This document shows positions 2 to 22,909 of a DNA stretch of 32,068 nt, piece after piece (position 1 is the first letter of the stretch; each line of letters begins with the position of its first letter). The translations under genes were made by a program, and so were the position numbers. The notes beneath the pieces are model-generated. The model saw nothing but the letters and a program-made list of their open reading frames with translations, did no database searches and had not been told where the DNA came from. The stretch is from Cytophagales bacterium (GTDB taxonomy: Bacteria > Bacteroidota > Bacteroidia > Cytophagales > CCMP332). The DNA lies in NCBI GenBank assembly GCA_028282565.1, contig JANQHS010000023.1:1-32068 (forward strand), in the 5' to 3' direction.

Positions 2-1453
2 TGGACGGGAGGTTCGGCCAATTCATGGCTTTGGGCGGTATTTCCAGCGGGAGATCCCTTGGTTGGCAATGGGACTCCAACAGCGGTTCCCAATGTAACG
101 ATCACCGGACTTACACCGGAGTCAAATTATGAGTTTTATGTTCGCGAGGTTTGTCCGACGGGAGATACCTCGCTTTGGGCCGGTCCTTTTGCCTTCACAA
201 CACCGTTTTTATGTCCTCCTAATTCATATTGCTTCCTGACAGGGGGAGCGGTCGGAAGGGATGGGCCGACCCAGGCTCAATTGAATACGGTATATAGTGG
301 TACCAACTTGTCCGGAGCGGTTACATCCGTAAACGGTGTTCAACAATGGAATGTGCCGGCCAGCGGTCTTTATGAAATTGAGGTTTATGGTGCCGAGGGT
401 GGCGGATCGCCAACTCGTCCTGGTGGAAAAGGTGCGAGAATGCGAGGTGAGTTTAACCTCTTGGGAGGATCAGTCCTTCGGGTGATCGTTGGCCAATCGG
501 GCAATCTGAGTCCGACCGGTGCCGGAAACCGTGGAGGAGGCGGTGGTTCATTCGTTTGGGATACCGCGAGCGCAGCACAACCCCTTATTGTAGCCGGTGG
601 AGGCGGAGGTACGAATATTTCTGTCACCTCCGCACTTTCAGGACTTGATGCCGTGACAACTACCGGAGGAACATTCATGGCCAATGGTCTTGGAAACCCC
701 GGGGTGAATGGTAACGGAGCTTCCCCGGGAGGGGCGGGTTATCTGACAAGCTCCTCGAATGAAGATAGCGGGGGGCCTGCTTTGGCAGCCTTGCTTGGTG
801 GCGTTGGTGGGGATGGATATACCGCAGCTACCCATTTCGGTGGATTTGGTGGCGGTGGCGGTGGTGGCGGAAGCCCGAGTACCACCTTCGGAAGTGGTGG
901 TGGCGGAGGATACTCCGGTGGCGCCGGTCAGGGAAGCCCTGGTTCTGTTGGTGGTGGTGGCGGAGGTTCCTTCAATGCCGGGATCAATCAAAGCAATTCA
1001 CCAGGCGTAAGGTCAAATGATGGTGTGGTCATTATCAAGATATTGTCTTCCGGGGCGACAAATGATATTGCTGCTATCAGCATTGATTCCCCGACTGTTT
1101 ATTGTCCCGGTCCTCAAAATGTCGTAGCAACCATTGCTAATTTTGGGTCGAACCAGGTTACTTCAGCAACCGTAAACTGGTCTGTTGACGGTGCAATACA
1201 GACTCCGGCGAGTTTTACGGGTTTATTGGATACGGTCGGCGGTGCAAATCCTTCCTTGTTGCAGGTGAACTTGGGTTCATTCAATTTTTCCACTAACAAT
1301 CCCTACGATATTGCGGTATGGACAAGTATGCCCAATGGGGCTGTTGATACTGTTCCATCGAATGATTCTACATTCAGGACGGTTCAGTCAAGTCTTCCTC
1401 CGCCATCCAACCTGATGCTTGGAGCTTTGACAGCTACTTCTGCCCAGGTCTCA
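2..1453 (+). repeat. Protein-coding tandem repeat, unit 1
   Basis: This 484-codon unit runs from the W of the fibronectin-III motif (W-x-GG-x-x-NSWLW) to the residue before the same motif in the next unit. Its glycine-rich module (about 380-1010) is the most diverged of the three. It also lacks two cysteines that units 2 and 3 both have. Confidence 0.85.
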
Positions 1454-4400
1454 TGGTCGGGTGGATCAAATAACAGTTGGCTTTGGGTTGTTGTTCCTGC
1501 CAGCACTCCGATCGTAGGCAACGGAACTCCAAGTGCAACTCCAAACGTAACGGTCACAGGCCTGACTTCGGAGACTGCTTATGACTTTTATGTGAGGGAG
1601 GTTTGTCCCACGGGGGATACCTCTGCATGGTCAGGCCCATTGTTCTTTTTAACACCCTTTCAATGCCCGCCCAATGCCTATTGCTTTCTCCCTTGCGGTG
1701 CAACTGGTCAATTTGGGCCGACCCAGACGGATTGTAACACAACTTATTCGGGTACCAACCTGGCCGGCAACGTTACGGTTACCGGAGGAATCCAAAATTG
1801 GAATGTTCCCTCCGGCGGACTCTATACCATCGAAGTATTCGGTGCACAGGGTTTTGGAACATTTGGAGGGCGTGGAGCTAAAATGAGTGGCGAATTCGTC
1901 TTTAATACAGCGGATCCTCTAAAAATTCTTGTTGGACAAAAAGGAGCTCCACCTGTAGGTGCAGGGACCAACCAATTCGGAGGAGGAGGTGGAACTTTTG
2001 TCACGGACAACCTGGATAATCCCTACATTATTGCCGGAGGTGGCGGTGGATCTTGGGCGCCAACGCACACCGCGATAACCGATGCGCCAATCACGACCAC
2101 TGGTAATACCGGTGGCGGAGCAGGGTCTACTGGTGGGGCAGGTGGAACAGGAGGACTTGGTGGTGGAACCAGCGTCAGTGGGGACGGCGGAGGTGGATTG
2201 CTTGGAGATGGAGCTGGTGTAGCCGGTGGTCAGGCCTTTGTCAATGGTGGCAATGGAGGAATTACAACAACCAGCGGTGGTGAAGGTGGATTTGGCGGCG
2301 GTGGCGGTGCCAGCAGTTTTAATAACCGCAGGGGCGGCGGAGGTGGTGGCTACTCCGGAGGCGGTGGAGCCCATGGTGGAAGCACCGGATTCCCTGAAGG
2401 CGGAGGTGGTGGATCGTTCAACTCCGGTTCCAACCAGTCGAACATGGCTGGTGTGAGGTTCAATGATGGAGTGGTGATCATAACCCCGCTTTCGAGTGGT
2501 GTTCCGAATGATGTTGGGGCAATTTCAATTGATTCACCCACCGTCTATTGTCCGGGTATTCAAAATGTAGTGACTACCATAAATAATTTTGGTTCGAATC
2601 AGGTGACCTCCGCTACAGTCAACTGGAGCGTGGATGGAGCGATTCAAACCCCGGTATCCTTTACAGGAACACTGGATACTATAGGAGGATCTGGACTAAC
2701 CACCGCCCAGGTGACCCTTGGAGCCTTCAACTTTTCCACGAACAATCCTTATGCACTCAAGGTTTGGACCAGTCTCCCTAATGGCGTTGCAGACACGGTA
2801 AATATTAACGATACGTCAGAAACTATAGCGCAGTCCAGTTTACCTCCTCCAACCGCGTTGACGTTGGGGCCAATGACCGGTACTTCGGCGGAGTTCTCAT
2901 GGGCAGGAGGGGCGAACAATAGCTGGTTATGGGTTGTGGTACCACAGGGAACCCCGATAACGGGAATCGGGACCGCAAGTTCGGTGCCGATGGTTACAGT
3001 CACAGGATTGACATCTGAGACGGCCTATGATTTTTATGTACGGGAAGTCTGTCCTACGGGAGATACTTCACAATGGGCAGGGCCTTTATTCTTCATTACC
3101 CCATTTGAGTGTCCTCCAAATTCATTCTGCTTTCTCCCATGTGGGGCCAGCGGTAGTTCAGGTCCTACCCAATTGGATTGTAATGCTGCTTATGCTGGAA
3201 CTCCCTTGGCTGGAAATGTTACTGTGATCGGCGGAATTCAAAACTGGAATTTCCCTTCCGGTGGAGTTTATACCATTGAGGTCTTCGGTGCCCAAGGCTT
3301 TGGTGCCTTTGGTGGAAGAGGGGCTAAGATGAGTGGAGAGTTCACATTTGGTACTGGTGATCCACTGAAGATCCTTGTCGGACAAAGAGGTGCACCTCCG
3401 GTAGGGTCAGGAACAAACCAATTTGGCGGTGGCGGAGGTACGTTTGTTACAGACCTCTCGAATAGTCCTTACATCATCGCCGGTGGAGGTGGCGGCTCCT
3501 GGGCTACAACCTTTACAGCCGTTACCGATGCTGTGGTAAGCGGCACAGGAAATGTTGGTGCAGGAGCGGGAAGTACCGGCGGAGCCGGTGGAACCGCCGG
3601 GCTTGGTGGTGGCACTAGCAGTCAGGCTGATGGTGGAGGCGGATTATTAGGAGATGGTGGCGGAACAACCGGAGGGTTGGCATATATCAATGGCGGCTTG
3701 GGTGGTGTTGCTGCGACGAGCGGCGGTGAAGGAGGATTCGGCGGCGGCGGCGGCGCGAGCAGCTTCAACAACCGGAGAGCAGGCGGCGGCGGCGGATACT
3801 CCGGCGGCGGCGGATCGCATGGAGGAACTACAGGTTTCCCGGAAGGTGGAGGAGGTGCATCCTTTAATTCCGGAATAAACCAGGATAATGTAGGTGGTGT
3901 CAGGTTCAATGATGGTGTGGTGATCATCACGCCGGTGGCTAGCGGAATCGCCAATGATGTAGGCGTTGTTTCCGTCGATGTTCCTATTGATCCATGTGAA
4001 GGCGTGCTGGATGTTCCTGTGAGTATTCTCAATTTCGGAACTACCCAAGTGAATTCCCTGACCATTAATTGGGAGGTGAATGGTATTCCGCAAACTGCAG
4101 TTCCTTATACCTCTCTTCTGGATACTTTTGGCGGAGCGGGTACTTCTTCTGCTCAGGTGGTGTTGGGCACTTTCAATTTTGTGGCAGGAACACCTGTGAA
4201 TATCAGAGCCTGGACCTCAAATCCGAATGGTGGAGCCGATGGACTTCCATCTAACGATAGCAGTGAAAAGGTGATCAACGCCCTGAACCAGCCGGTGATC
4301 AACTCAACTATGGGTGATGAGGTTTGTGAGGTAGGAGACCTGACCTTGACGGTTAGCGGATCAGCCGGCACCATGGCTTGGTATGACGATCCTACCCTGT

Positions 4401-5029
4401 TGAATCAGGTGGGCACAGGAAATAGTCTGACCATAATTGGTGCAACCAGTAGTCAAACACGCTATGTGCGGGGTGAAAATCCCAACGGCTGCAATACCCT
4501 GCCGGAAACGGTATTTGGAAAAGTCAGTCAGACTCCGGTTTCGGACTTTACTTTCGTCATCAATGGCGCTACAGTTGACTTCACTGAGAATATTACCGGC
4601 GCATTTGATAGCGTGTTATGGAATTTTGGAGACTTTACAAGCAGCACCCAGGTCAACCCCTCCCATACTTATGCCACTACGGGGACAAGGTTGGTCACCC
4701 TTACGGTCTGGGATGGTACCTGTGTGGATGACTCAAGTCATGTACTCTTTGTCAACGTGGGATTGAACGATAGTCAGTTGGCAAGGGATATCCGGCTTTA
4801 TCCGAATCCGAGCTCCGGACAGTTCACCATTGAACTGCCTACCCTGGATAAGGATATGCGTTTTGAGATCCTCGATCTGAAAGGAGTGTTGTTGTTTGAA
4901 GAAGAGGTTGGTTCTGTATCTGATCATTTGAGCAAGGACTTTGATCTGCAGGGATTACCAGTTGGAAATTATGTATTGAAGGTGTACCGGGGTGATGAGT
5001 TCTCCTATCACCGTTTCACAATAAAATAG
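2..5029 (+). CDS. Giant modular T9SS-exported surface protein, 5'-truncated by the window
   Basis: The reading frame is already open at position 2 with repeat sequence, so the true start and signal peptide lie upstream; the internal ATG at 59 is not the start. About 1675 residues are visible. They form three tandem units of about 480 residues, each with a fibronectin-III-like segment, a short Cys-containing segment (CPPNxxCFL), a very glycine-rich module and a CARDB-like beta domain ending near NDSS. After unit 3 come an Ig-like segment (about 4290-4530), a PKD domain (about 4535-4760, WNFGDF and SHTY motifs) and a C-terminal T9SS type A sorting domain (YPNPSSGQF motif near 4800). It is probably secreted across the outer membrane and anchored at the cell surface. 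An adhesin or matrix role is inference; no catalytic motif is visible. A strong terminator follows immediately. Confidence 0.9.
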   Translation, partial: WTGGSANSWLWAVFPAGDPLVGNGTPTAVPNVTITGLTPESNYEFYVREVCPTGDTSLWAGPFAFTTPFLCPPNSYCFLTGGAVGRDGPTQAQLNTVYSGTNLSGAVTSVNGVQQWNVPASGLYEIEVYGAEGGGSPTRPGGKGARMRGEFNLLGGSVLRVIVGQSGNLSPTGAGNRGGGGGSFVWDTASAAQPLIVAGGGGGTNISVTSALSGLDAVTTTGGTFMANGLGNPGVNGNGASPGGAGYLTSSSNEDSGGPALAALLGGVGGDGYTAATHFGGFGGGGGGGGSPSTTFGSGGGGGYSGGAGQGSPGSVGGGGGGSFNAGINQSNSPGVRSNDGVVIIKILSSGATNDIAAISIDSPTVYCPGPQNVVATIANFGSNQVTSATVNWSVDGAIQTPASFTGLLDTVGGANPSLLQVNLGSFNFSTNNPYDIAVWTSMPNGAVDTVPSNDSTFRTVQSSLPPPSNLMLGALTATSAQVSWSGGSNNSWLWVVVPASTPIVGNGTPSATPNVTVTGLTSETAYDFYVREVCPTGDTSAWSGPLFFLTPFQCPPNAYCFLPCGATGQFGPTQTDCNTTYSGTNLAGNVTVTGGIQNWNVPSGGLYTIEVFGAQGFGTFGGRGAKMSGEFVFNTADPLKILVGQKGAPPVGAGTNQFGGGGGTFVTDNLDNPYIIAGGGGGSWAPTHTAITDAPITTTGNTGGGAGSTGGAGGTGGLGGGTSVSGDGGGGLLGDGAGVAGGQAFVNGGNGGITTTSGGEGGFGGGGGASSFNNRRGGGGGGYSGGGGAHGGSTGFPEGGGGGSFNSGSNQSNMAGVRFNDGVVIITPLSSGVPNDVGAISIDSPTVYCPGIQNVVTTINNFGSNQVTSATVNWSVDGAIQTPVSFTGTLDTIGGSGLTTAQVTLGAFNFSTNNPYALKVWTSLPNGVADTVNINDTSETIAQSSLPPPTALTLGPMTGTSAEFSWAGGANNSWLWVVVPQGTPITGIGTASSVPMVTVTGLTSETAYDFYVREVCPTGDTSQWAGPLFFITPFECPPNSFCFLPCGASGSSGPTQLDCNAAYAGTPLAGNVTVIGGIQNWNFPSGGVYTIEVFGAQGFGAFGGRGAKMSGEFTFGTGDPLKILVGQRGAPPVGSGTNQFGGGGGTFVTDLSNSPYIIAGGGGGSWATTFTAVTDAVVSGTGNVGAGAGSTGGAGGTAGLGGGTSSQADGGGGLLGDGGGTTGGLAYINGGLGGVAATSGGEGGFGGGGGASSFNNRRAGGGGGYSGGGGSHGGTTGFPEGGGGASFNSGINQDNVGGVRFNDGVVIITPVASGIANDVGVVSVDVPIDPCEGVLDVPVSILNFGTTQVNSLTINWEVNGIPQTAVPYTSLLDTFGGAGTSSAQVVLGTFNFVAGTPVNIRAWTSNPNGGADGLPSNDSSEKVINALNQPVINSTMGDEVCEVGDLTLTVSGSAGTMAWYDDPTLLNQVGTGNSLTIIGATSSQTRYVRGENPNGCNTLPETVFGKVSQTPVSDFTFVINGATVDFTENITGAFDSVLWNFGDFTSSTQVNPSHTYATTGTRLVTLTVWDGTCVDDSSHVLFVNVGLNDSQLARDIRLYPNPSSGQFTIELPTLDKDMRFEILDLKGVLLFEEEVGSVSDHLSKDFDLQGLPVGNYVLKVYRGDEFSYHRFTIK
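1454..2899 (+). repeat. Protein-coding tandem repeat, unit 2
   Basis: This 482-codon unit starts at the WSGGSNNSWLW motif. Its glycine-rich module (about 1790-2450) closely matches unit 3 in protein sequence, including GGRGAKMSGEF, ILVGQ and IIAGGGGGSW. Synonymous codon choice between units differs extensively. Confidence 0.85.
2900..4280 (+). repeat. Protein-coding tandem repeat, unit 3 (last copy)
   Basis: This unit starts at the WAGGANNSWLW motif and ends near the NDSSEK motif of its CARDB-like domain. The glycine-rich module (about 3240-3890) includes a locally GC-rich run of GGC codons near 3735-3820. The protein then changes to Ig-like, PKD and sorting domains. The end of the unit is approximate. 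Confidence 0.8.
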
Positions 5030-5784: not shown

Positions 5785-6642
5785 GTGATTCGCCTCCTGC
5801 CTTTTCTTGTTTTGTTTTTTTCTGCTTTTCTCGCAAAGGGAGACTTGATCGTTGATTCGCTCTTTGTCAATTCGGGAATGGTTCAAATGGAGTTCGGAGG
5901 CCCAATGTTTCCTTACATATCTCCAAATCAGTCGACGACCTTTGAAAAAGAGGCGGCCAGGTATAGAATATTGCCTGGAGATACCCTGAGGCTCATGATC
6001 TTTAACAATGATAACAAAAGCCACAGCTTTACGATCCGGGGCGGCGGTCAAAGCTCTCCGGTGATTCCTGCGGGTAATAGCGCAAGCTGGGATGTTCATT
6101 TTTCCAATCCAGGGATTTATCAGTTTGCTGATGAGAGCGATCATAATGATGTTCTCGGACTTTCGGGAATGATCATCGTCTGGCGGGGTCTTGACCATGA
6201 GTTCTATTGGTCTCTGAGGGAGCACCAAAGTGACCTCAATGCCAATATCCTGGCCGGGCAGCCTTTTGATCCGGATGACTTTGCTCCGGATTATTTCACT
6301 GTCAATGAAAAAAGCCATCCTGAAGTTCAAAATGATTCGGCAGCAGTGATCTCTGGAAAGGTGGGAGACAGCATTTACATTTTCCTTTCAAATCAGGGAT
6401 TGATGGACCATTCAATCCATTTCCATGGTTACCACATCCAGTTGGTTTATTCATCTATCAATAACTGGCAATTGGACTGGATCAAGGATAGTTTGCCGAT
6501 CAAGGCCCAGGAATCGCAGATATACCTGCTTGTACCGCATCAGGAGGGTACTTTTCCTGTTCATGATCATAATCTTGTAGCAACGACCATTGGCGGAAAT
6601 GCCCCGGGGGGAATGCTGGTTCTCTTTACCATAGATCCATGA
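5785..6642 (+). CDS. Multicopper-oxidase-like protein, subunit with HxHG and HDH sites
   Basis: The 285-residue exported protein begins with a hydrophobic signal peptide (about residues 1-19). The GTG at 5785 is the only possible start, because an in-frame stop lies at 5758 and no other start codon intervenes. Two cupredoxin folds follow. The first (about 40-150) keeps few ligand-like residues. The second (about 185-285) has HSIHFHGYH (H209, H212, H214, H217) and HDH (H260-H262). HDH matches the domain-1 copper motif of two-domain laccases such as Streptomyces SLAC, from family knowledge. There is no HCH motif and thus no type 1 copper cysteine, so alone it should not be an oxidase. The stop codon overlaps the next start (ATGA, 6639-6642), which carries the missing ligands. 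There is no T9SS sorting domain; location is probably periplasmic or in complex with its partner. Confidence 0.85.
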   Translation: MIRLLPFLVLFFSAFLAKGDLIVDSLFVNSGMVQMEFGGPMFPYISPNQSTTFEKEAARYRILPGDTLRLMIFNNDNKSHSFTIRGGGQSSPVIPAGNSASWDVHFSNPGIYQFADESDHNDVLGLSGMIIVWRGLDHEFYWSLREHQSDLNANILAGQPFDPDDFAPDYFTVNEKSHPEVQNDSAAVISGKVGDSIYIFLSNQGLMDHSIHFHGYHIQLVYSSINNWQLDWIKDSLPIKAQESQIYLLVPHQEGTFPVHDHNLVATTIGGNAPGGMLVLFTIDP

Positions 6643-7835
6643 GGAAGCTGTTGTTGATATCCTCCTTCTGTATGGTTTTCGGCTCTGTGTCAGCGCAGGT
6701 CAAGCGTGAGTACACCTTTGATTCGTTCATGGATGGTATTTCTTTGCTGCACACAGGAGACAGCATGAACATCTGGGGTTTTCAGCGACTCCGCCCGGAT
6801 ACTTCTTTGAAATTACTGCCCTCACCAACTATCTATTGTGAACTCGGTGATACGGTGGAGATCACAGTGATCAATACCTCCTTTGAAGGGCATACTATTC
6901 ATCTTCACGGACTTGACGTAGACCAGGCCAATGACGGAGTCCCATCGACTTCCTTCTTCATTCAACCAGGCCAAACAGGTAGGTATTCCTTTATCGCGAC
7001 ACATACGGGGAATTACCTCTACCATTGCCATGTTACCTCGGTCATGCATGTTCAATTGGGGATGTATGGTATGTTGGTGGTGGCAGGGCCCGGGGGTCAG
7101 AAAGAGATGTACCCCGGAGGACCGAAATATGTCAAGGAATATGCCTGGCTTGGTGCTGAGATCGACAAGTCCTGGCATGATGATTATACCAGCATCGGGA
7201 GTTTTACTAACTTTTTTCCAGATTATTTTCATGTTTCCGGGAAGTCCAAACAGCAGATCTGGGAGGACTCTGCGATCTCGATCTACGACGCGCGCATCAA
7301 TGAGCCGATCTTGATCAGGGCATTTAATATTGGCTTTGGGATCCAGGAGTACATCTTTCCTTCCTCATTGACCGTAAAGGCAATTATGTCCGATGGGAGG
7401 GTTTTACCCTCGCAGGTACAGCTCCACACATTGAGATTGTACCCCGGGGAACGCTATGGTCTGATGATGTGGCCCGGCAGCTTTACTCAGGACAGCATCA
7501 CGGTTAATTTTAGGAATATGTTAAGGGATCAACTCTGGGCGACCGATAAGATCCCAATCGAAGTGAATGGTGTTTATGGGATTGAAAAGGAACTAGAGGA
7601 GGAAATCCTGAGTGTATTCCCAAATCCGGGTTCGGGTAAGCTGAATATCCGGACGCAAACCGAGATCCTGGCAATTGAGCTTTATGATGTCCATGGGCAT
7701 CTTGTGTGGACGGGTCACTCCCTTAATGCCGGGGATCATGCAATCACATTGATGGTATCCGATGGAATCTATGTTTTGAAATGCGAGATAGATGGGGGAG
7801 CGGTCACCAAAAGAATTATGGTTCTTTCTGAGTAA
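6639..7835 (+). CDS. Multicopper-oxidase-like protein with type 1 copper motif and T9SS sorting domain
   Basis: The 398-residue protein has a signal peptide (about 1-19, ending near VSAQ). Its first cupredoxin domain (about 60-155) carries HTIHLHG (H85, H88, H90) and HCHVTSVMHVQLGM (H129, C130, H131, H137, M142). These match the HxxHxH and HCH-H-M motifs that supply type 1 copper and half of the trinuclear cluster in multicopper oxidases. The spacing between C130 and H137 is two residues longer than in usual laccases. A second beta domain (about 215-310) has no copper motif. The C-terminus (about 325-398, with FPNPGSGKLNI) is a T9SS type A sorting domain, so this subunit is probably surface-displayed. 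It overlaps the preceding gene by four bases and is likely translationally coupled. Substrate is unknown; metal or phenol oxidation would be guesses. Confidence 0.88.
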   Translation: MRKLLLISSFCMVFGSVSAQVKREYTFDSFMDGISLLHTGDSMNIWGFQRLRPDTSLKLLPSPTIYCELGDTVEITVINTSFEGHTIHLHGLDVDQANDGVPSTSFFIQPGQTGRYSFIATHTGNYLYHCHVTSVMHVQLGMYGMLVVAGPGGQKEMYPGGPKYVKEYAWLGAEIDKSWHDDYTSIGSFTNFFPDYFHVSGKSKQQIWEDSAISIYDARINEPILIRAFNIGFGIQEYIFPSSLTVKAIMSDGRVLPSQVQLHTLRLYPGERYGLMMWPGSFTQDSITVNFRNMLRDQLWATDKIPIEVNGVYGIEKELEEEILSVFPNPGSGKLNIRTQTEILAIELYDVHGHLVWTGHSLNAGDHAITLMVSDGIYVLKCEIDGGAVTKRIMVLSE

Positions 7836-10183: not shown

Positions 10184-11491
10184 ATGTATATTGAAATACG
10201 AACGCTTTCTGAAAAATTCGGAAAGTTTTTTCTAACCGCTACGCTACTGCTGTCTTTCACCCTGGCCCATTCACAGGATGAAAATGTTGAACCCGCAGCC
10301 GAAGAAACTACTGAGGAAACCGCATCCGAAGGAGGAGGTTCCGATGAGTTGATCCAGGTAGGAGTTACGGTTTACGAAGAGAATTGTACCCAATGCCATA
10401 GGTTCAATTCGGTTGTGGTAGGCCCGGCATTAAAGGATGCCCATACAAGGTGGTCTTCCAAAGAAGAACTGCTCCATTTCATTCAATATCCTCAAAAGGT
10501 GATCGATGGCGGGGAAAATGCCCATGCAAAAGAGCTATACGATCAATATAAGCAGTACATGCCGAATCATGATTTCCTCTCTGATAATGAGTTGGAGGGC
10601 TTATATGCTTTTATCGTGGCTGAAAGCACGAATCCCTTTCATGAGGTAGAAAAGGCGGAAGAAACTTTAGCCTCAGCTGACGGATCCGGTACGGGAGGTG
10701 CTGGAACCGGGGTATCCGAAGAGTTCCTGATGGTGATCATCGTCATTCTTATCGTGATCCTGCTCTCGATCATTGTTGCCCTGACCCTTTTAATGGGCTT
10801 GATGAAGCGCTTCGTAGATTCCCGTGATGATATCAGCGAAGAGGAAAGGGAATACATCAGTCCTGGCTTCAACCTTGTGGCCATGCTGCGTTCCAAACCA
10901 TTTGTCAATACTGTAGTTCTGCTATTTGTCCTCTTTGCATTGAAGTCCGGGATTGACGGGCTCTATTCGGTCGGTATCCAGCAGGGATATGCGCCTACTC
11001 AACCGATCAACTTTTCTCATAAACTCCATGCGGGCATGTATGAGATCGAATGCCAGTATTGTCACACGGGGGTTACCAAGAGTAAGAACGCCAATATTCC
11101 ATCGGCAAACATTTGTATGAATTGCCATAATTCCGTCAAAGTTGCGTCTCCGGAGATCCAAAAGATCTACGCGGCCGTTGAAAAAAATCGCCCTATAGAA
11201 TGGGTAAGGGTTCACAATCTTCCCGACTTGGCTTATTTCAATCATTCTCAGCACGTTGCTGTGGGAGAATTGGAATGTCAGACCTGTCATGGCCCGGTCG
11301 AAGAGATGGAAGTGATCCAACAATATTCTCCTTTGACCATGGGGTGGTGTGTGAATTGCCATCGTGAAACACTGGTCAAAGCAGAGGGAAATGAATACTA
11401 TGATAAGCTGATGGAGTTCCACGACGGAGAAAATGCGGGGATGACCGTGGAGGACATTGGTGGACTAGAATGTTCCAAGTGTCATTATTAA
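10184..11491 (+). CDS. actA: Alternative complex III subunit ActA, multiheme cytochrome c
   Basis: The 435-residue protein is the periplasmic multiheme electron carrier of the ActABCDEF quinol oxidase complex. A signal sequence or anchor spans about residues 15-30. An acidic linker leads to a class I cytochrome c domain with CTQCH (C68, C71, H72). Two membrane segments follow (about 181-206 and 240-258). The C-terminal part carries five more CxxCH motifs at C290, C311, C365, C389 and C430, the last ending one residue before the C-terminus. That makes six heme c sites, one more than the five usually described for ActA; the extra one is the N-terminal domain. It is the first gene of a long operon, 25 bases after a clear promoter. 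Electrons would pass from ActB through these hemes to ActE or the oxidase. Confidence 0.93.
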   Translation: MYIEIRTLSEKFGKFFLTATLLLSFTLAHSQDENVEPAAEETTEETASEGGGSDELIQVGVTVYEENCTQCHRFNSVVVGPALKDAHTRWSSKEELLHFIQYPQKVIDGGENAHAKELYDQYKQYMPNHDFLSDNELEGLYAFIVAESTNPFHEVEKAEETLASADGSGTGGAGTGVSEEFLMVIIVILIVILLSIIVALTLLMGLMKRFVDSRDDISEEEREYISPGFNLVAMLRSKPFVNTVVLLFVLFALKSGIDGLYSVGIQQGYAPTQPINFSHKLHAGMYEIECQYCHTGVTKSKNANIPSANICMNCHNSVKVASPEIQKIYAAVEKNRPIEWVRVHNLPDLAYFNHSQHVAVGELECQTCHGPVEEMEVIQQYSPLTMGWCVNCHRETLVKAEGNEYYDKLMEFHDGENAGMTVEDIGGLECSKCHY

Positions 11492-11513
11492 TATCTAATC
11501 TGAAGACGATTAT

Positions 11514-14500
11514 ATGAAGGAAGGAAAAAAAGTTTACTGGCAGGGGCTCGAGCAGCTTAACCAGGATCCTGAATTCCTGAAATACGCTGATAAGGAATTT
11601 CCTGAATACCTGCCTGTGAAAGAGCAGAAGAATGGTCAGCCTGAGGATTCCAATGTTGATTTGGGAACCGACAGGAGGGACTTCTTAAAGCTCATGGGAT
11701 TCTCAGTAGCAGCCGCATCACTCGCGGCCTGTGAGGCTCCTGTCAGAAAGGCTATTCCATACCTCAATAAGCCGACGGATGTCGATCCCGGTGTTGCCAA
11801 CTATTATGCGTCAACCTATTCTCAAGATGGCGACTACTGCAGTGTTCTGGTGAAAACCCGTGAGGGCAGGCCTATTTTCATCAAAGGAAACAAGATGTCC
11901 GATGTTACCCAGGGTTCGATTAACTCAAGGGTGATCGCATCAGTACTGGATCTATACAATAAGGATCGATTAACGGGACCGAAGACCAAGGGGCAGGATT
12001 CCGATTGGAAAACAGTGGATGCTGAGATCAATCAGAAGATCAGCTCAATCACAAATTCCGGTGGAAAAATTGCCCTGGTGAGCAAGTCGGTCACCAGTCC
12101 ATCCACGCTTAATCTGATTTCTGAGATCCAGGAACAATATCCGGGAGTTGAGCACATACAATATGACGTAAACTCCAATTACGGTATCAGAAAAGGCAAT
12201 GAGATGTCATTTGGGGTTGGGTTTGTTCCGGCCTATGACTTTTCAAAAGCCAAAACCATAGTCAGTATCAATGCTGACTTCCTGGGATCATGGGTTTCAC
12301 CCATAGAATATTCAAGACAATACGCTCAGGGAAGAAAGGTGGGTAAATCAAAGAAGAAAATGTCCAGACATTTTCAGTTGGAATCTTTGTTTACCATGAC
12401 CGGTGCGAGCGCTGATTACCGCAGCAAGATCAGGCCTTCCGAAGAGGGCGATGTTGTCAAAGCGCTTTACAATATGTTAGCTGCCAAAACCGGTGGAGCA
12501 TCTGTTTCAGGTGGTGATGGAAGCTATAATTATCTTGACCAGGCTGCTGATGAACTGCTCAGGAGCAAGGGGAAATCACTGGTGGTCTGCGGATCAAATG
12601 ATCCAAATGTCCAGACTCTTGTGAATGGCATCAATTACATGCTTGAGAACTACGGTCAGACCATCGATCCAAGCAAAGGAAATACATCAAGGCAGGGTGA
12701 TGATCGCAGAATGGTTGATTTTGCCAATGGTCTTTCCAGCGGTGAGTACAAGGGTGTTGTCTTTTTAAACTGTAACCCTGTTTATGATCACCCATTAGGC
12801 GGCAAGATCAAAGAAGGTATTAAGAAAGCTCTTCTTTCGATCTCTACGGCTATGGTTTCAGATGAGACCGCCGTTGAGGTGCAATACAATTGTCCATCGC
12901 ATCACTTTCTTGAGTCATGGAATGATTCCATGCCGAGGAAGGGATCTTACAGCCTTGCTCAGCCGACCATCAACCCTTTATTCAATACAAGACAGGCTGA
13001 GGAATCCCTGTTGCGTTTCGCAGGGCGTGATGATTCCTATTACGATTATGTGAGGAACTACTGGAAAGAGAATGTTTATAATGCGGAGACTGCAGAAAAG
13101 TCATTTGACCTTTTCTGGGATCGTTGTCTTCATGACGGTGTTCATGAGGTAGAGACACCTTCGGAGGAGGGATTCGACATGGTTCCTGTGCTGATCTCCG
13201 AATCGATGGGAACCGCTGCATCTGGAATATCAGCTGAAGGTCAGGGTATGGAATTGGTGATCTACGAATCCCATAATATAGGTTCAGGTGAAATGGCTAA
13301 CAATCCCTGGTTACAGGAAACTCCTGACCCGATCTCTAAGGTCTGCTGGGATAATTATATTTCTATCAGCGTGCCTGACGCCAAAGAGCAGGGTATCAAC
13401 CAGGACGATCTGCTAACATTGACGGCAAGTGGAAAATCTGTCACACTGCCAGCCTTGATACAACCAGGACAAACCGCTGGAGTTCTCGGAGTTGCATATG
13501 GCTACGGAAGAACGAATTCCGGGAAGGTAGGTGATGGGATTGGAGCAAATGTCTATCCCATGGCTGGTAGCGATGGTTATGTGAATTATTCTATTACCAA
13601 AGGAGTTTCGCTGGCCAAAGCAACTGGAACAAGGAAACTTGCTCAGACACAAACCCACCATACCTATATGGGTAGGGATTTTGTGATCCAGGAGACCACG
13701 TTGAACGAATACAAAAAAGATGCATGGGCGGGCAGATCCTTTCCCAAGATCTCCACCTATGATGGAAAAACCGCTCCGAAGAATATTTCACTTTGGAAAG
13801 GGCATAAATACCCTAATCACCATTGGGGGATGGTTGTTGACCTGAATAGCTGTACAGGGTGTTCTGCTTGTATCGTCTCTTGTAATTCTGAAAATAACAT
13901 TCCCGTTGTTGGAAGGGATGAGGTGATCAATAGAAGAGAAATGCATTGGCTCAGGGTCGATCGCTACTATAGCAGTGATAGTGATCATTGGCAGGGCGGT
14001 GAAGTTCCTTCCGATAACCCTGAGGTTGTTTTTCAGCCTATGATGTGCCAGCAATGCAACAATGCTCCCTGCGAAACTGTATGCCCGGTTGCAGCGACAA
14101 CGCATAGCACTGAGGGGCTGAACCAAATGGCTTATAACCGCTGCATCGGAACCAGGTATTGCGCCAATAACTGCCCCTATAAGGTTAGAAGATTCAACTG
14201 GTTCAAATACCATGACAACAGGCAATTCCCTGATAATCTTGGTATGAACAACGACCTTGGTAAAATGGTCTTGAACCCAGATGTGACTGTAAGGTCAAGA
14301 GGGGTTATGGAAAAATGTACTTTCTGCGTGCAAAGGGTACAGGAAGGAAAGCTCACCGCCAAGAAGGAGGGAAGGAAAGTGAAAGACGGAGAGATCACCA
14401 CAGCCTGTGCGGAAGCCTGTCCTACCGAAGCATTGGTTTTCGGGGATATGAATGATCCTAAGTCACGTATCAGTGAGGTTCTTTCCAGCGAAAACAAGGA

Positions 14501-14594
14501 AAGAGCATTCCATGCACTGGAGGCGATCAGGGTAGCACCGAATGTGTCCTACTTGACCAAGGTTAGAAATAAGGAAAAAAGTAATCAAGCATAG
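11514..14594 (+). CDS. actB: Alternative complex III subunit ActB, molybdopterin-oxidoreductase-like Fe-S protein
   Basis: The 1026-residue protein joins a molybdopterin-oxidoreductase-like part (about residues 85-750) to a ferredoxin-like part (about 760-1000). A twin-arginine motif, RRDFLK (R54, R55), is followed by a lipobox ending at C73 (SLAAC). This indicates Tat export and lipid anchoring after an unusual N-terminal extension that is common in this family. Cluster cysteines include CTGCSAC (C780, C783, C786, C790), CQQCNNAPCETVC (C845 onward), CIGTRYCANNC and CTFC with ACAEAC. In known complexes ActB carries three 4Fe-4S clusters and one 3Fe-4S cluster and no molybdenum cofactor. It takes electrons from quinol oxidised at ActC and passes them to ActA. 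It follows actA by 22 bases. Confidence 0.95.
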   Translation: MKEGKKVYWQGLEQLNQDPEFLKYADKEFPEYLPVKEQKNGQPEDSNVDLGTDRRDFLKLMGFSVAAASLAACEAPVRKAIPYLNKPTDVDPGVANYYASTYSQDGDYCSVLVKTREGRPIFIKGNKMSDVTQGSINSRVIASVLDLYNKDRLTGPKTKGQDSDWKTVDAEINQKISSITNSGGKIALVSKSVTSPSTLNLISEIQEQYPGVEHIQYDVNSNYGIRKGNEMSFGVGFVPAYDFSKAKTIVSINADFLGSWVSPIEYSRQYAQGRKVGKSKKKMSRHFQLESLFTMTGASADYRSKIRPSEEGDVVKALYNMLAAKTGGASVSGGDGSYNYLDQAADELLRSKGKSLVVCGSNDPNVQTLVNGINYMLENYGQTIDPSKGNTSRQGDDRRMVDFANGLSSGEYKGVVFLNCNPVYDHPLGGKIKEGIKKALLSISTAMVSDETAVEVQYNCPSHHFLESWNDSMPRKGSYSLAQPTINPLFNTRQAEESLLRFAGRDDSYYDYVRNYWKENVYNAETAEKSFDLFWDRCLHDGVHEVETPSEEGFDMVPVLISESMGTAASGISAEGQGMELVIYESHNIGSGEMANNPWLQETPDPISKVCWDNYISISVPDAKEQGINQDDLLTLTASGKSVTLPALIQPGQTAGVLGVAYGYGRTNSGKVGDGIGANVYPMAGSDGYVNYSITKGVSLAKATGTRKLAQTQTHHTYMGRDFVIQETTLNEYKKDAWAGRSFPKISTYDGKTAPKNISLWKGHKYPNHHWGMVVDLNSCTGCSACIVSCNSENNIPVVGRDEVINRREMHWLRVDRYYSSDSDHWQGGEVPSDNPEVVFQPMMCQQCNNAPCETVCPVAATTHSTEGLNQMAYNRCIGTRYCANNCPYKVRRFNWFKYHDNRQFPDNLGMNNDLGKMVLNPDVTVRSRGVMEKCTFCVQRVQEGKLTAKKEGRKVKDGEITTACAEACPTEALVFGDMNDPKSRISEVLSSENKERAFHALEAIRVAPNVSYLTKVRNKEKSNQA

Positions 14595-14597
14595 ATA

Positions 14598-15962
14598 ATG
14601 AGCGTAGTCGTTTCATCTGTCAGAACACCACTGATCACGGGCACGAAGACATTGCACGATGTGTCTGATGATATCTGCCGTTATGTAGAGAGACCCCCAA
14701 GCAAATCCTGGATGGTCGCCATTGCATTGTCGCTGGCAACCCTTGGTTTTGGTGTTTACTGCCTTTACCGTACCCTTTGGGATGGTATCGGGGTTTGGGG
14801 TCTGAACAAGACCGTTGGTTGGGCCTGGGATATCACCAACTTCGTGTGGTGGGTTGGTATCGGTCACGCTGGTACCCTTATCTCAGCCATCCTTCTTCTT
14901 TTCAGGCAGAAATGGCGGATGTCGATCAACCGGGCTGCAGAGGCGATGACCATCTTTGCTGTTATATGTGCTGCGACATTCCCATTGATCCACATGGGCC
15001 GTCTTTGGCTTGGTCTGTATTGGGTCCTTCCACTGCCAAACACTTTTGGTTCGCTCTGGGTGAACTTCAATTCCCCGCTGCTTTGGGACGTTTTCGCGAT
15101 CACAACATATTTCACCGTTTCACTTGTTTTCTGGTACCTGGGCCTTATCCCGGATTTTGCTACAATACGCGACAGAGCAAAACTTCCATGGAGAAAGAAA
15201 TTTTACAGTGCTTTAAGTTTCGGTTGGACAGGAAAAGCCAGAGACTGGAATCATTATGAAACAGTAGCCTTGATATTGGCCGGACTGGCAACTCCTTTGG
15301 TCCTTTCGGTACATACCATTGTAAGTTTTGACTTCGCCACTTCCGTTATACCCGGTTGGCATACGACGATCTTCCCTCCATACTTCGTTGCCGGAGCTAT
15401 TTTCTCCGGTTTCGCTATGGTATTGACCCTCTTGATTATTACAAGAAGGGTTTTTCATTTGGAAAATTATATCACGCTCTATCACATGGAGTTGATGAAT
15501 ATTGTGATCATCGTGACCGGCTCGATCGTCGGTATCGCATACATCACAGAGCTTTTTATGGCTTGGTATTCGGGTGTGGAAGCCGAATGGTATGCCTTCC
15601 GAAACAGGGCTCTTGGACCATATTGGTGGGCATATTTTTCGATGATGACCTGTAATGTGGTATCACCACAGTTATTCTGGTTCAAGCCCATCAGGAGAAG
15701 TATCGTTTCCACATTCGTCCTTTCCATCATTGTGAACATTGGAATGTGGTTCGAAAGGTTTGTGATCATCGTGACCTCACTTCATAGGGATTATCTTCCC
15801 TCCAGTTGGGCGATGTTCACTCCAACATTGTACGACGTAGGAGACTTCCTGTTGACATTCGGGTTCTTTTTTACGGCATTCCTGCTGTTTGCCAAATTCT
15901 TCCCGGTGATCAACATTGCTGAAGTTAAAACAATATTGAAATCAGATAGTCAAAAGTCATAA
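14598..15962 (+). CDS. actC: Alternative complex III subunit ActC, NrfD/PsrC-type quinol-binding membrane protein
   Basis: The 454-residue NrfD-family integral membrane protein has about ten hydrophobic helices. It is expected to bind and oxidise menaquinol close to the 3Fe-4S cluster of ActB. Conserved-looking stretches include WWVGIGHAGTLISA (about 93-106), IHMGRLWLGLYW and MWFERFVIIVTSLHRD near the C-terminus. Length is normal. The start at 14598 lies three bases after the actB stop. ActF is a diverged relative lower in the operon, as is usual. Confidence 0.95.
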   Translation: MSVVVSSVRTPLITGTKTLHDVSDDICRYVERPPSKSWMVAIALSLATLGFGVYCLYRTLWDGIGVWGLNKTVGWAWDITNFVWWVGIGHAGTLISAILLLFRQKWRMSINRAAEAMTIFAVICAATFPLIHMGRLWLGLYWVLPLPNTFGSLWVNFNSPLLWDVFAITTYFTVSLVFWYLGLIPDFATIRDRAKLPWRKKFYSALSFGWTGKARDWNHYETVALILAGLATPLVLSVHTIVSFDFATSVIPGWHTTIFPPYFVAGAIFSGFAMVLTLLIITRRVFHLENYITLYHMELMNIVIIVTGSIVGIAYITELFMAWYSGVEAEWYAFRNRALGPYWWAYFSMMTCNVVSPQLFWFKPIRRSIVSTFVLSIIVNIGMWFERFVIIVTSLHRDYLPSSWAMFTPTLYDVGDFLLTFGFFFTAFLLFAKFFPVINIAEVKTILKSDSQKS

Positions 15963-15965
15963 CCA

Positions 15966-16496
15966 ATGGATCTGAAGAAAAATTATTTGGTAGGGGTATT
16001 TGATGATGATGATGTGTTGCTGAATGCGATACCCAAAATACGCGAATCAGGCATCAAGATCGAAGATGTATACACCCCGTTTCCTGTTCATGGAATCGAA
16101 GAAAAGCTGGGTTACAAGCGCTCGAAAATGTCGGTAGCGGCTTTCTGTTTCGGAATGTGCGGAACTTCTTTTGCGATTTGGATGCAAACCTGGATGCTGG
16201 GATTCGATTGGCCCATGATCATCGGTGGTAAGAACTTCATTTCCGCGCCTCCATTTGTTCCAGTGACCTTTGAGTTGACGGTGTTGATCGGTTCTCTTGG
16301 AATGGTGGGAACATTCTTTGTGATGGCCGGGCTTGCTCCCTGGGCCAAGCCAAGGATCTTTGATCTGAGAAGTACGGATGATAAGCATGTGATGGCCATT
16401 GACCTCGCTGCCAACAGCAGAAGTGAAAATGAAATTCAGGGAATGCTTCAGAGCAATGGGGCAGCTGAAGTGTACCGTAAAGATTTTGAAGATTAA
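15966..16496 (+). CDS. actD: Alternative complex III subunit ActD, DUF3341 family
   Basis: The 176-residue DUF3341 protein has a cytoplasmic N-terminal part (about 1-55, with GVFDDDDVLLNAI and VYTPFPVHGIEE). Two membrane helices follow (about 58-78 and 95-118), then a short tail. In solved complexes ActD packs beside ActC and ActF and has no cofactor. The fingerprint DVYTPFPVHG is characteristic of the family. It starts three bases after actC. Confidence 0.93.
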   Translation: MDLKKNYLVGVFDDDDVLLNAIPKIRESGIKIEDVYTPFPVHGIEEKLGYKRSKMSVAAFCFGMCGTSFAIWMQTWMLGFDWPMIIGGKNFISAPPFVPVTFELTVLIGSLGMVGTFFVMAGLAPWAKPRIFDLRSTDDKHVMAIDLAANSRSENEIQGMLQSNGAAEVYRKDFED

Positions 16497-16500
16497 TACC

Positions 16501-17142
16501 ATGAGGATCTATCTATATACATTAGCTATCGCGGTGGCGATGGTTTCCTGCAGGGCAGGAGGAGAGAACCAGGGTACGGAGTATGCTCCGAACATGTATC
16601 ACTCGGTGGCCTATGAGCCATTGAAGCAGGTCAAGGACAAGTCAGCAGGTCTTTGGGTGAACTCAACGGATGAGAATGTGGGAGAGTACTATAGCTCCAA
16701 TCCCAATAACCCTTATGGGATGAATATGAGGGAGCCCGTTGCCAATACCATTCCAAGAAGGTCTTATAACGGAGCAGGCACGGATGTCTATTTTGAGGCC
16801 GAAAGGGTTCATAAGGATAGTCTTGCATACAGTGCTGCAAATCTTGAAAACCCCTTTGCCGAGGGTGATGAACTCGTTCTCGAAGAGGGAAAACAACTCT
16901 ACCTGACCTATTGCCAGCATTGTCATGGAAAAACAGGTAACGCCGACGGGAAAGTTGCTGCGATGTATCCGGGAGTTCCAAAATATAATTCAAGAGCCTT
17001 GAAGGATATCTCTCAGGGACATATCTACCATGTCATTACACATGGGAAGGGAAGAATGTGGCCACACGCCTCTCAGGTGGCTCCTGACGAAAGGTGGAAG
17101 ATCGCCAGGTATGTACAAAAACTCCAAAAAGGGGAATCTTAA
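16501..17142 (+). CDS. actE: Alternative complex III subunit ActE, monoheme cytochrome c lipoprotein
   Basis: The 213-residue protein begins with a lipoprotein signal peptide ending in the lipobox MVSC (C17), so the mature protein is anchored by lipid. This dictates the start at 16501; the longer open frame from 16399 merely overlaps actD. One heme c site is visible, CQHCH (C138, C141, H142), with M186 in GRMWPHA as the likely sixth ligand. Residues 18-115 form a non-heme region contacting the complex in known structures. The protein is the probable electron exit toward the CuA centre of CoxB, consistent with CoxB lacking its own cytochrome c domain. Spacing to actD is four bases and to actF ten. 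Confidence 0.95.
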   Translation: MRIYLYTLAIAVAMVSCRAGGENQGTEYAPNMYHSVAYEPLKQVKDKSAGLWVNSTDENVGEYYSSNPNNPYGMNMREPVANTIPRRSYNGAGTDVYFEAERVHKDSLAYSAANLENPFAEGDELVLEEGKQLYLTYCQHCHGKTGNADGKVAAMYPGVPKYNSRALKDISQGHIYHVITHGKGRMWPHASQVAPDERWKIARYVQKLQKGES

Positions 17143-17152
17143 AAACTGAACT

Positions 17153-18499
17153 ATGAGTCAAATGGACCAATTTGAGTTTACAGGAAAGCAAAAGAGGAAT
17201 GTATTTCTGATCCTCGTTATCGGTTTGGTGCTGATGGTTTTGGGGATCTTCATTGAAATGTCGGGTGGCGGAGGGCATCATGAAGAGCATGGTCTGCTGA
17301 ACAATTCATCTGGCCAGGTAGCCAGTCTGATGGCTCATGATCAAGCAGAAGGTTCTCATGCGGAAGAAGCCGGCGGGCATCACGGATACCATTGGTATCA
17401 AAGGCTTTATGCTAACCTGTGGATCAACAATATGTACTTCATGGGTATAGGTATAATTGGCCTGTTCTTTTTTGCGATCCAATACGTTGCAAGGGCGGGC
17501 TGGTCTGCTTCGATCATCAGAGTGATGCTGGCCTACGCACATTGGATTCCTTATGGAGCGGTATTGATCATATTGGTCTTCTTTCTCGCGAATCATGATC
17601 TATTTCACTGGACTCATGAGTCATTATATGTGGAATTCTTAGAGGATGGAAGCCCAAATCCTGAATACGATGAGATCATCGTTGGAAAAGCAGGCTTTCT
17701 GAATATGCCCTTCTACTGGGCAAGAATGCTCATTGGCCTGGGTGTGTGGACAGGGGCGTTCTTCCTATTGAGAAAATACACCCTTGCTGAAGATCAGGAA
17801 GGCGGAACAAAGTATTACCATAAGTCCGTGACAACCTCGGCGATTTTCATCATATTCTTTGCGGTCAGCTCCTCGATTCTTGCTTGGGATTGGATCATGT
17901 CTATCGATACTCACTGGTATAGCACCATGTTTGGTTGGTATATTTTTGCCTCTTGGTTTGTAACGGGCCTTGCTTCGATCACCCTGATGACAGTCTGGCT
18001 GAAGAAGTTGGGTTATCTGCCGATGGTGAATGAGAACCACATTCATGATCTTGGAAAATTTGTTTTTGGGTTCAGTATTTTCTGGACTTATATCTGGTTT
18101 AGTCAGTTCTTATTGATCTATTATGCCAACATTCCGGAAGAGACTGTTTACTTCTGGGAAAGACTGAATTCACATACTTATGCGCCACTGTTTTATTTGA
18201 ATTTGTTGCTCAACTTTTTTCTACCCTTCCTGTTATTAATGACAAGGGATTCGAAGAGACAATGGCTGATGTTAAGGATCGTAACTTCTATTGTTATTGT
18301 GGGACACTTCATTGACTTCTATCTGATGATCACTCCGGGTACATTGAAAGCTCATGGGGGGATAGGGTTTATGGAAATCGGCACATACCTGGTCTATCTT
18401 GGTCTGTTTGCCTTCGTCGTGCTAAACGGGCTGTCGAGATACAAGTTGGTTCCGGCTAATCATCCAATGTTGGAAGAAAGTGTTCATCACCATATTTAA
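17153..18499 (+). CDS. actF: Alternative complex III subunit ActF, NrfD-like membrane protein
   Basis: The 448-residue protein has about ten membrane helices and is a paralog of ActC. In known complexes it lacks a quinol site near a cluster and is structural or possibly proton-conducting. The N-terminal half has a long periplasmic-type loop rich in histidine and acidic residues (GGGGHHEEHG and GSHAEEAGGHHGYH, about residues 40-82), perhaps able to bind metal. Typical stretches include WDWIMSIDTHWYSTMFGWY (about 245-263) and WYQRLYANLWINNMYF. It is followed ten bases later by coxB, so complex III and oxidase genes are co-transcribed. Confidence 0.94.
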   Translation: MSQMDQFEFTGKQKRNVFLILVIGLVLMVLGIFIEMSGGGGHHEEHGLLNNSSGQVASLMAHDQAEGSHAEEAGGHHGYHWYQRLYANLWINNMYFMGIGIIGLFFFAIQYVARAGWSASIIRVMLAYAHWIPYGAVLIILVFFLANHDLFHWTHESLYVEFLEDGSPNPEYDEIIVGKAGFLNMPFYWARMLIGLGVWTGAFFLLRKYTLAEDQEGGTKYYHKSVTTSAIFIIFFAVSSSILAWDWIMSIDTHWYSTMFGWYIFASWFVTGLASITLMTVWLKKLGYLPMVNENHIHDLGKFVFGFSIFWTYIWFSQFLLIYYANIPEETVYFWERLNSHTYAPLFYLNLLLNFFLPFLLLMTRDSKRQWLMLRIVTSIVIVGHFIDFYLMITPGTLKAHGGIGFMEIGTYLVYLGLFAFVVLNGLSRYKLVPANHPMLEESVHHHI

Positions 18500-18508
18500 T
18501 TTCTAGAG

Positions 18509-19558
18509 ATGCTAAATTTATTAATTGGTCTTGGTGTACTTTTAGTCTTACTGGTTCTTTTCCTCCTCTTTCGTCTTGGTGGGACGGTTGCGGTAGTCAA
18601 AGGGACTCATAAAAAGAGGGAGACTTCTGCAAACAATATCAATGCATTCCTGCTGCTCTTTATGTTCATTGTGGGCATTCTTGCGGCCTGGTACTACAAC
18701 GGTCATTTGGCAGAGCATTTCCTTCCGGAATCGGCATCAGAGCATGGTCATTGGACCGATGAGCTATTCTGGGTGACCACTGCGATCATCCTGGTTGTTT
18801 TCCTGGTCACGAACTTTGTTTTATTCTATTTTGCCTTCCGCTACAGGTACAGAGAAGGGAATCAGGCCACCTTCTATCCTGAGAACAACAAACTCGAAAT
18901 TATTTGGACCGTTATCCCCGCAATTGTTCTGACCCTCTTGGTCCTTGCCGGATTAAGGACCTGGGGTAAGATCATGCTTTCGGATATTCCCGAAAACGCC
19001 CTGAAGATCGAAGTGAAGGCCAAGCAATTCGCCTGGGAAGTGCGCTACCCCGGCGAGGACAATGAGTTTGGGCCCTACGATTTCAGGCTGATCGATGCAA
19101 CCAATCAGTTTGGTGTGGATTTTACACAGCAAGCTGCTTTGGATGATTTCGTTCCAAGAAAGATCTATTTGCCAAAGGGCAGGCCGGTTTTTCTGAAGAT
19201 CAGAGCTGTAGATGTACTGCACAGTGTCTATATGCCGCATTTCAGGCTAAAGATGGATGCTGTTCCGGGAATGGAAACACAGTTCCTTTTTACACCTACC
19301 ATCACCACCGATGAAATGAGGGCCAAGACCGGCAACCCCGAATTTGATTATGAACTTGCCTGCACAGAGATCTGCGGGCGGGGCCATTTTGCCATGAGAA
19401 TGGAAATTGTGGTATTGGAAGAAGAGGAGTTCAATACCTGGTATGCTGAACAAACTCCATGGGCCGAATCGAACGTGGACTATGTCAAAGAAGCGATTCA
19501 AAAAAGGGGAACCAACCAGGCTCTTCTTGAAAAATTAGAAAACAAGAAATCTTCTTAA
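18509..19558 (+). CDS. coxB: Cytochrome c oxidase subunit II
   Basis: The 349-residue protein has an N-terminal helix (about 3-20) and two more helices (about 46-64 and 85-115), then a periplasmic cupredoxin domain. The binuclear CuA site is complete: H238 (VLHSVY) and CTEICGRGHFAM with C285, E287, C289, H293 and M296. There is no C-terminal cytochrome c domain, so this is an aa3-type rather than a caa3-type subunit. The electron donor is likely ActE in a complex III-oxidase supercomplex, as described for Flavobacterium johnsoniae. Three bases separate it from coxA. Confidence 0.96.
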   Translation: MLNLLIGLGVLLVLLVLFLLFRLGGTVAVVKGTHKKRETSANNINAFLLLFMFIVGILAAWYYNGHLAEHFLPESASEHGHWTDELFWVTTAIILVVFLVTNFVLFYFAFRYRYREGNQATFYPENNKLEIIWTVIPAIVLTLLVLAGLRTWGKIMLSDIPENALKIEVKAKQFAWEVRYPGEDNEFGPYDFRLIDATNQFGVDFTQQAALDDFVPRKIYLPKGRPVFLKIRAVDVLHSVYMPHFRLKMDAVPGMETQFLFTPTITTDEMRAKTGNPEFDYELACTEICGRGHFAMRMEIVVLEEEEFNTWYAEQTPWAESNVDYVKEAIQKRGTNQALLEKLENKKSS

Positions 19559-19561
19559 TCA

Positions 19562-21430: not shown

Positions 21431-21461
21431 CTAGGTCAGATTGAGGCTGAGTTTCACAGGG

Positions 21462-22313: not shown

Positions 22314-22903
22314 CAGGACAGGAACAATTGCTTATGCAGAACTATCAGGCTCCGAGAAGGCCGCTTTCGATGAATCCGAGGAAGTTTATCCTTTGGCTGT
22401 TCATTGTTTCGATATCCATGCTGTTTGCTGCACTAACCAGCGCATATATGGTGAGAAAATCAGAAGGCAACTGGCTCAATGTCGAAATGCCCACCCTTTT
22501 CTGGATTTCGTCAGCCATTATCCTTATTTCAAGTTTGACCATGCATCTTGCCGTACGGTCGGCGGGAAAAGATGATTTTTCGAAATTGAAGACCTGGATA
22601 TCGCTTACCCTTGTTCTGGGGTTGGGCTTTTTGATCACACAATATATGGGTTGGTCGGAGCTGGTGACTTCGAACGTCTATTTTGTTGGAAATCCGGCAG
22701 GTTCATTTGTATATGTTTTCTCGGGACTACATGGCTTGCATATAGTTTCGGGAATCGTTTTTCTGGCCATAATATTCTACCTTGTTCTGGCTCAAAAGGT
22801 CCATTCAAAAAACATGAACAGCGTTCAGATGTGCGCAACCTTCTGGCATTTTTTGGACGGACTTTGGCTATATTTGTTTACCTTTTTATTGTTAAATCAT
22901 TGA
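22310..22903 (+). CDS. coxC: Cytochrome c oxidase subunit III, first copy
   Basis: The 197-residue protein has five membrane helices of the subunit III family. Typical stretches are FSGLHGLHIVSG (about 137-148) and ATFWHFLDGLWLYLFTFL near the C-terminus. Its length equals the short form of subunit III, without the two N-terminal helices of the mitochondrial type. Its ATG overlaps the ctaB stop (22310-22313), suggesting translational coupling. A second, longer paralog follows directly; two tandem subunit III genes are usual in Bacteroidota cox clusters. Confidence 0.93.
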   Translation: MTGQEQLLMQNYQAPRRPLSMNPRKFILWLFIVSISMLFAALTSAYMVRKSEGNWLNVEMPTLFWISSAIILISSLTMHLAVRSAGKDDFSKLKTWISLTLVLGLGFLITQYMGWSELVTSNVYFVGNPAGSFVYVFSGLHGLHIVSGIVFLAIIFYLVLAQKVHSKNMNSVQMCATFWHFLDGLWLYLFTFLLLNH

Positions 22904-22909
22904 TTGAGA

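Follow-up and report, generated by a model that had tools for sequence, protein, structure and literature searches.

A pair of overlapping cupredoxin genes

The window, by which we mean the whole analysed stretch of 32,068 nucleotides, holds two consecutive genes, here called A and B, whose coordinates and features are given in Table 1. A signal peptide is apparent at the start of both proteins (judged by eye for B). The two open reading frames and their coupling through four shared bases are present as an earlier reading, made from the sequence only, had described them. The same holds for the residues listed there, namely H212 and H214 (HFHG) with H260 and H262 (HDH) in A, which lacks a type 1 copper cysteine, and H85, H88 and H90 (HTIHLHG), H129-C130-H131, H137 and M142 in B. 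These motifs are not chance occurrences, since Pfam assigns Cu-oxidase_2 to A and both Cu-oxidase_3 and Por_Secre_tail to B, and the ligand positions are conserved. B is the only Cu-oxidase_3 match in the window's genome.

Table 1 Features of the A-B gene pair in the window
Feature	Position	Strand	Description and basis
Gene A	5785..6642	+	GTG start; 285 aa; predicted secreted two-domain cupredoxin protein, no sorting tag
A domain 1 (d1), cupredoxin-like	5845..6189 (approximate bounds)	+	Weak Cupredoxin_1 match; hhalign to B domain 1; ligand table
A domain 2 (D2), HFHG/HDH half of the predicted trinuclear cluster	6286..6639	+	Cu-oxidase_2, E 9e-9
A H212 and H214 (HxH)	6418..6426	+	Invariant in A of 24/24 pairs
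A H260 and H262 (HDH)	6562..6570	+	H260 in 24/24; H262 in 23/24 (Q in L064)
ATGA overlap, A stop/B start	6639..6642	+	Read from the sequence; 4 bases
Gene B	6639..7835	+	398 aa; predicted secreted two-domain cupredoxin protein with T9SS tag
B domain 1 (D1), predicted type 1 copper site and HxxHxH/HCH cluster half	6708..7088	+	Cu-oxidase_3, E 1.2e-19; D1 of 3G5W, E 1.1e-15
B H85 (type 1), H88 and H90 (trinuclear)	6891..6908	+	Intact in 23/24 pairs
B H129, C130, H131, H137 and M142 (HCH...H...M)	7023..7064	+	Intact in 23/24 pairs
B domain 2 (d2), ligand-less counterpart of A D2	7131..7574 (approximate bounds)	+	Alignments to D2 of 3G5W, A and L035; HxH and HDH absent
B T9SS type A C-terminal sorting domain	7614..7823	+	PF18962 (Por_Secre_tail), E 3.6e-9; TIGR04183, E 3.1e-9

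The type 1 copper set of B (H85, C130, H137 and M142) lies in its N-terminal domain together with the cluster histidines H88, H90, H129 and H131; domain 2 of B has no matching ligand pairs. Conversely, domain 1 of A is devoid of type 1 and cluster ligands, the H85 position alone still being histidine in 18 of the 24 A proteins that we compared (see below), and domain 2 of A is homologous to domain 2 of the two-domain oxidases 2ZWN and 3G5W and of the single-chain relative L035. As the sequence-only reading had proposed, the eight predicted trinuclear-cluster histidines and the type 1 set are complete only on adding A to B, and each protein contains a second, copper-less beta domain.

Among solved structures, 2ZWN and 3G5W come closest to A and also rank among the top relatives of B. 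AlphaFold modelled A poorly (pLDDT 39 from the single sequence, 49 with three alignment rows). A Foldseek search with the latter model returned the type C enzymes 2ZWN and 3G5W first, with TM scores of only about 0.3, so that these matches carry little weight.

Distribution and linkage of A and B

A-B pairs were found at 24 loci in at least 21 Bacteroidota genomes, and in all 24 B is the next gene downstream of A on the same strand. This includes L033 and 20 loci newly recovered with A as the query. The genes overlap by exactly four bases in 10/24 pairs, and 12 more overlap otherwise or lie at most 12 bases apart; at L074 the gap, counted from the first ATG, is 230 bases. Since two phylum-wide samples (395 and 321 genomes) gave no further pair, the family is patchy and was found mainly in the window's class. 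A search of plasmids with A returned distant single-chain oxidases only.

In a search of about 390 genomes from the class, a strong A match occurs in 16, and the strong B matches fall in exactly these 16. As the B profile was built from B genes beside A, this co-occurrence arises partly by construction and mainly shows that the sample holds no intact orphan B. No intact A or B without its partner turned up in these genomes, i.e. the case of each gene occurring alone, which would have spoken against the sequence-only reading, was not encountered. That reading had also called for a search for conserved adjacency, which is borne out at every locus, and for fused versions, of which we found none. 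One candidate fusion (L078:1483-3561), a single open reading frame of 692 codons with both motifs, was rejected. Because the last residues of A are out of frame and the signal peptide of B is retained inside, it represents a frameshifted junction (an indel or a sequencing error).

The phylogenetic tree recovers three groups, namely A (100/99), B (100/95) and the single-chain set (94/90). The A and B distances over the 24 pairs are correlated (Mantel r 0.69, a value reached in 0 of 5000 permutations), which is what joint inheritance of the pairs would produce. Approximately unbiased (AU) tests did not reject a grouping of B with the type C single chains (p = 0.46) or of A with them (p = 0.25), so that the tree is compatible with A and B as sisters from one duplication within the lineage as well as with their separate recruitment. 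At one locus (L072, genome G1080) the pair occurs in a large-protein version, in which A is the C-terminal part of a chain exceeding 1000 residues and B bears a long C-terminal extension.

Complementary ligand sets across the pairs

For the ligand comparison, A, B and their single-chain relatives were aligned jointly. The four ligands of A and the eight ligands of B are all kept in 23/24 pairs, down to about 30% identity, and the ligand sets of A domain 1 and B domain 2 are lost throughout. Taken together, the type 1 H, C, H and M and the eight cluster histidines of a multicopper oxidase are thus present in 23/24 pairs. The sole exception, L064, is affected in both genes, with H262Q in A and H90Y and H137N in B. 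Its genome (G550) contains four paralogous A-B pairs, and as the other three (L043, L059 and L066) are intact, L064 reads as a joint decay of A and B. Four further apparent exceptions (L076, L079, L081 and L082) were discarded: HNH replaces HDH there and every histidine is kept.

All twelve ligands occur in one chain in the single-chain relatives L035, L036, L135 and L136. In contrast, a B-like gene that stands without A in genome G153 has lost six of the eight ligands, including the cysteine and all histidines of the HxH and HCH motifs, and the A-less B-like gene of genome G290 shows a similar loss. Such ligand loss in the missing partner's absence is what an obligate partnership predicts.

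A proposed active site between A and B

Two-domain multicopper oxidases are homotrimers, and their trinuclear cluster lies between adjacent protomers, domain 1 of one being joined by domain 2 of its neighbour (PMC13151041; PMC3192119). Given this architecture, an obligate A-B hetero-oligomer is the best explanation of our findings. Within A and B, a complete ligand set results only when domain 1 of B is paired with domain 2 of A, and a homotrimer of either chain alone would lack half of every site. We consider it very probable that a single secreted multicopper oxidase of type C descent is made up of A and B as its two subunits and functions only as a hetero-oligomer. Homology, complementarity and linkage together suggest that the two probably share a site, with the position of the interface taken from the homologous enzymes. 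The hetero-oligomer proposed in the sequence-only reading is therefore likely right, although its origin has to be corrected (see below).

We infer the complex, its copper loading and catalysis from the genes, their ligands, homology, complementarity and linkage. In the mechanism that we propose, related genes, which most simply would have arisen by tandem duplication, retained opposite halves of the active site. B would have kept domain 1 with the type 1 copper ligands H85/C130/H137/M142 and the cluster ligands H88/H90/H129/H131, and A would have kept domain 2 with the other cluster half, H212/H214/H260/H262. The contact between domain 1 of B and domain 2 of a neighbouring A would house the cluster. 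Single electrons from a reductant would enter at the type 1 copper of B and cross the HCH bridge to the A-B interface, where they would reduce O2 to water; all other D1-D2 contacts would be inert. The assembly may be a mixed trimer (A-A-B or A-B-B) or an even-numbered complex. Because an A/B trimer would hold only one complete interface, the geometry of the homotrimers is not simply transferable.

Alternatively, B might be a homotrimeric type 1 electron-transfer protein or a partial oxidase, and A an independent copper binder rich in histidine that acts as an accessory protein or chaperone, so that they would cooperate but have no active site in common. We regard this as very unlikely. It would agree with the full type 1 site retained in B and with the metal-related genes that adjoin one of the pairs, but B also retains H88, H90, H129 and H131, which are trinuclear ligands in the family and which its own domain 2 cannot complete to a cluster. 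A, in turn, retains exactly the complementary four histidines at homologous positions, and both genes of L064 decayed together.

It is also conceivable, though very unlikely, that the A-B complex forms and is no longer an oxidase, having become a copper sensor, store or scaffold on the conserved site. All twelve catalytic positions are kept to about 30% identity, as catalysis predicts, and ligands are lost where the partner is missing. These observations argue against such a role, even though the pair comes with no substrate evidence and its A-less relatives, having lost their copper sites, apparently persist as non-catalytic proteins.

Probable descent from type C two-domain oxidases

A proposal on the origin of the putative hetero-oligomeric oxidase follows from aligning the two chains. 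In a comparison of 23 A with 21 B proteins by hhalign, A and B matched with a probability of 99.7 and an E-value of 1.7e-25, colinear over both domains. The all-ligand single chain L035 likewise matched A (E 3.8e-17) and B (E 1.8e-28), with both domains covered in each case. As both chains align through both domains with each other and with L035, the copper-less domains are decayed counterparts of the partner's active domains.

Types B and C of the two-domain oxidases are defined by the order of their copper sites (PMC13151041). The type 1 site lies in the first cupredoxin domain of B, which is the type C order. In the SLAC-type (type B) laccases, with which the sequence-only reading had compared the pair, it lies in the C-terminal domain, and that comparison does not hold. 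The idea of a fission falls as well, since each chain is a complete two-domain, type C-like protein. Based on their sequences, A and B are complete related chains that have lost opposite ligand halves, i.e. a case of reciprocal loss and not of fission. Splitting of a SLAC-type enzyme followed by addition of two unrelated beta domains, as the division of the ligand motifs between two genes might suggest, is extremely unlikely given that the type 1 copper is in domain 1 of its chain instead of domain 2, that both chains are complete two-domain type C homologs and that their copper-less domains align with the copper domains of the partner.

By homology, the pair is derived from type C two-domain oxidases. 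Both A and B possess two cupredoxin domains per chain, colinear with this family, and the type 1 ligands in the N-terminal domain are present in B and lost in A. Yet the pair departs from the family in that the trinuclear ligands are not in one chain, four being in B and four in A in 23/24 pairs. The three-domain oxidases L113-L116 were considered as the closest relatives and rejected.

Comparison with known oxidases

The multicopper oxidases are a textbook example of domain duplication, ranging from two-domain homotrimers to the six-domain ceruloplasmin. The latter is a eukaryotic protein whose six cupredoxin domains, arranged with pseudo-threefold symmetry in one polypeptide, form one complete trinuclear site, the other interfaces being inert. 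An A/B heterotrimer would resemble ceruloplasmin in that one interface holds the cluster, but would consist of two polypeptides instead of one. In heterodimeric fungal laccases such as POXA3, the large chain holds the whole active site, and the oxidase subunit MnxG carries a full oxidase site as well. POXA3 of Pleurotus ostreatus is likewise built from two different subunits, there a laccase chain and another small protein (PMC3129051), and the Mnx manganese oxidase (MnxG with MnxE3F3) is a multicopper oxidase that works in a hetero-complex (PMC5622069). In contrast to A and B, no homologs of MnxE and MnxF were known, and neither of these subunits is a decayed copy of MnxG.

The type C enzymes, represented by the Nitrosomonas europaea blue copper oxidase (3G5W) and a metagenomic laccase (2ZWN), have the same two cupredoxin domains per chain and the same ligand layout, with type 1 and HxxHxH/HCH ligands in domain 1 and HxHG and HDH in domain 2. 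In these enzymes the full ligand set sits on a single chain that assembles into homotrimers, whereas A and B each carry one half and neither could make a site by itself. SLAC-type laccases share with the pair the two-domain chains and a cluster common to subunits, the latter as proposed for A and B; they differ from B in having the type 1 copper in the second domain and are homomeric. In the copper nitrite reductase NirK, domain 1 also holds the type 1 copper and the site lies between protomers, and the NirK profile matches both proteins weakly. A and B score far below the NirK cut-off, however, and jointly hold a full trinuclear ligand set.

Our search of the literature on hetero-oligomeric or split multicopper oxidases, which covered few subscription journals, returned no split-ligand case and only heterodimeric laccases, the examples being fungal. 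The pair would represent a step that we did not find described, in which related subunits, each lacking the half kept by its partner, are locked in a hetero-complex. This origin of an obligate heteromer is open to testing, since all-ligand single chains are extant alongside 23 intact pairs, one doubly decayed pair and ligand-poor orphans.

Possible export through the type IX secretion system

The PF18962 sorting domain is present in 21/23 B proteins and in 0/23 A proteins, in line with the earlier statement that only B is tagged for the type IX secretion system (T9SS). The gene for the SprA translocon is present in the window's genome. B thus combines the signal peptide, the sorting domain and a translocon gene expected of T9SS cargo, and A lacks the sorting domain. 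The tag of B would bring the enzyme to the cell surface, and the pair raises the question of how an untagged subunit gets there when only its partner has a type IX signal. Should the enzyme act at the surface, A would have to travel with B or exit by another route. As the T9SS moves folded cargo (PMC9251779), piggyback export of untagged A on B is possible; a literature search combining T9SS and piggyback gave no clear example among the titles that it returned. A fuller scenario, which we put forward tentatively and with some doubt, is that an obligate hetero-oligomer, having arisen through reciprocal loss of half-sites, would be assembled in the periplasm and exported folded through the type IX system, with A riding on B.

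Gene neighbourhoods

No neighbour common to all loci points to a substrate. About half of the loci encode a small secreted protein, here called C, in the vicinity of A or immediately upstream of it; C bears a C-x4-C motif, is mostly T9SS-tagged and has no other Pfam domain. It occurs at L121, L126, L127, L128, L129, L131, L132 and L133, and also at L117 and L145. In G153 (L117:3275-6169), an A-less block consists of a tyrosinase gene, the C gene and the ligand-poor B-like gene, with C in the middle, and the same tyrosinase/C/B-like block without A is found in G290 (L143/L145). One may speculate that a tyrosinase in place of the A-B oxidase hints at phenol or catechol oxidation. At L121 (4519-12000), genes for an MntR/DtxR-like regulator, a TonB receptor and a CusA/CzcA efflux pump lie close to the A-B pair, a neighbourhood that fits metal biology instead of phenol oxidation. 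TonB receptors also occur near the pairs of L126 and L127.

The window's own neighbours of A and B provide no functional hint. Upstream of the pair (59-5029) lies an open reading frame of 1656 codons that contains several glycine-rich repeat modules and a PKD-like stretch and whose C-terminal end is T9SS-like. Positions 10184-23677, judged by eye, appear to encode alternative complex III and, after it, cytochrome c oxidase and a heme O synthase.
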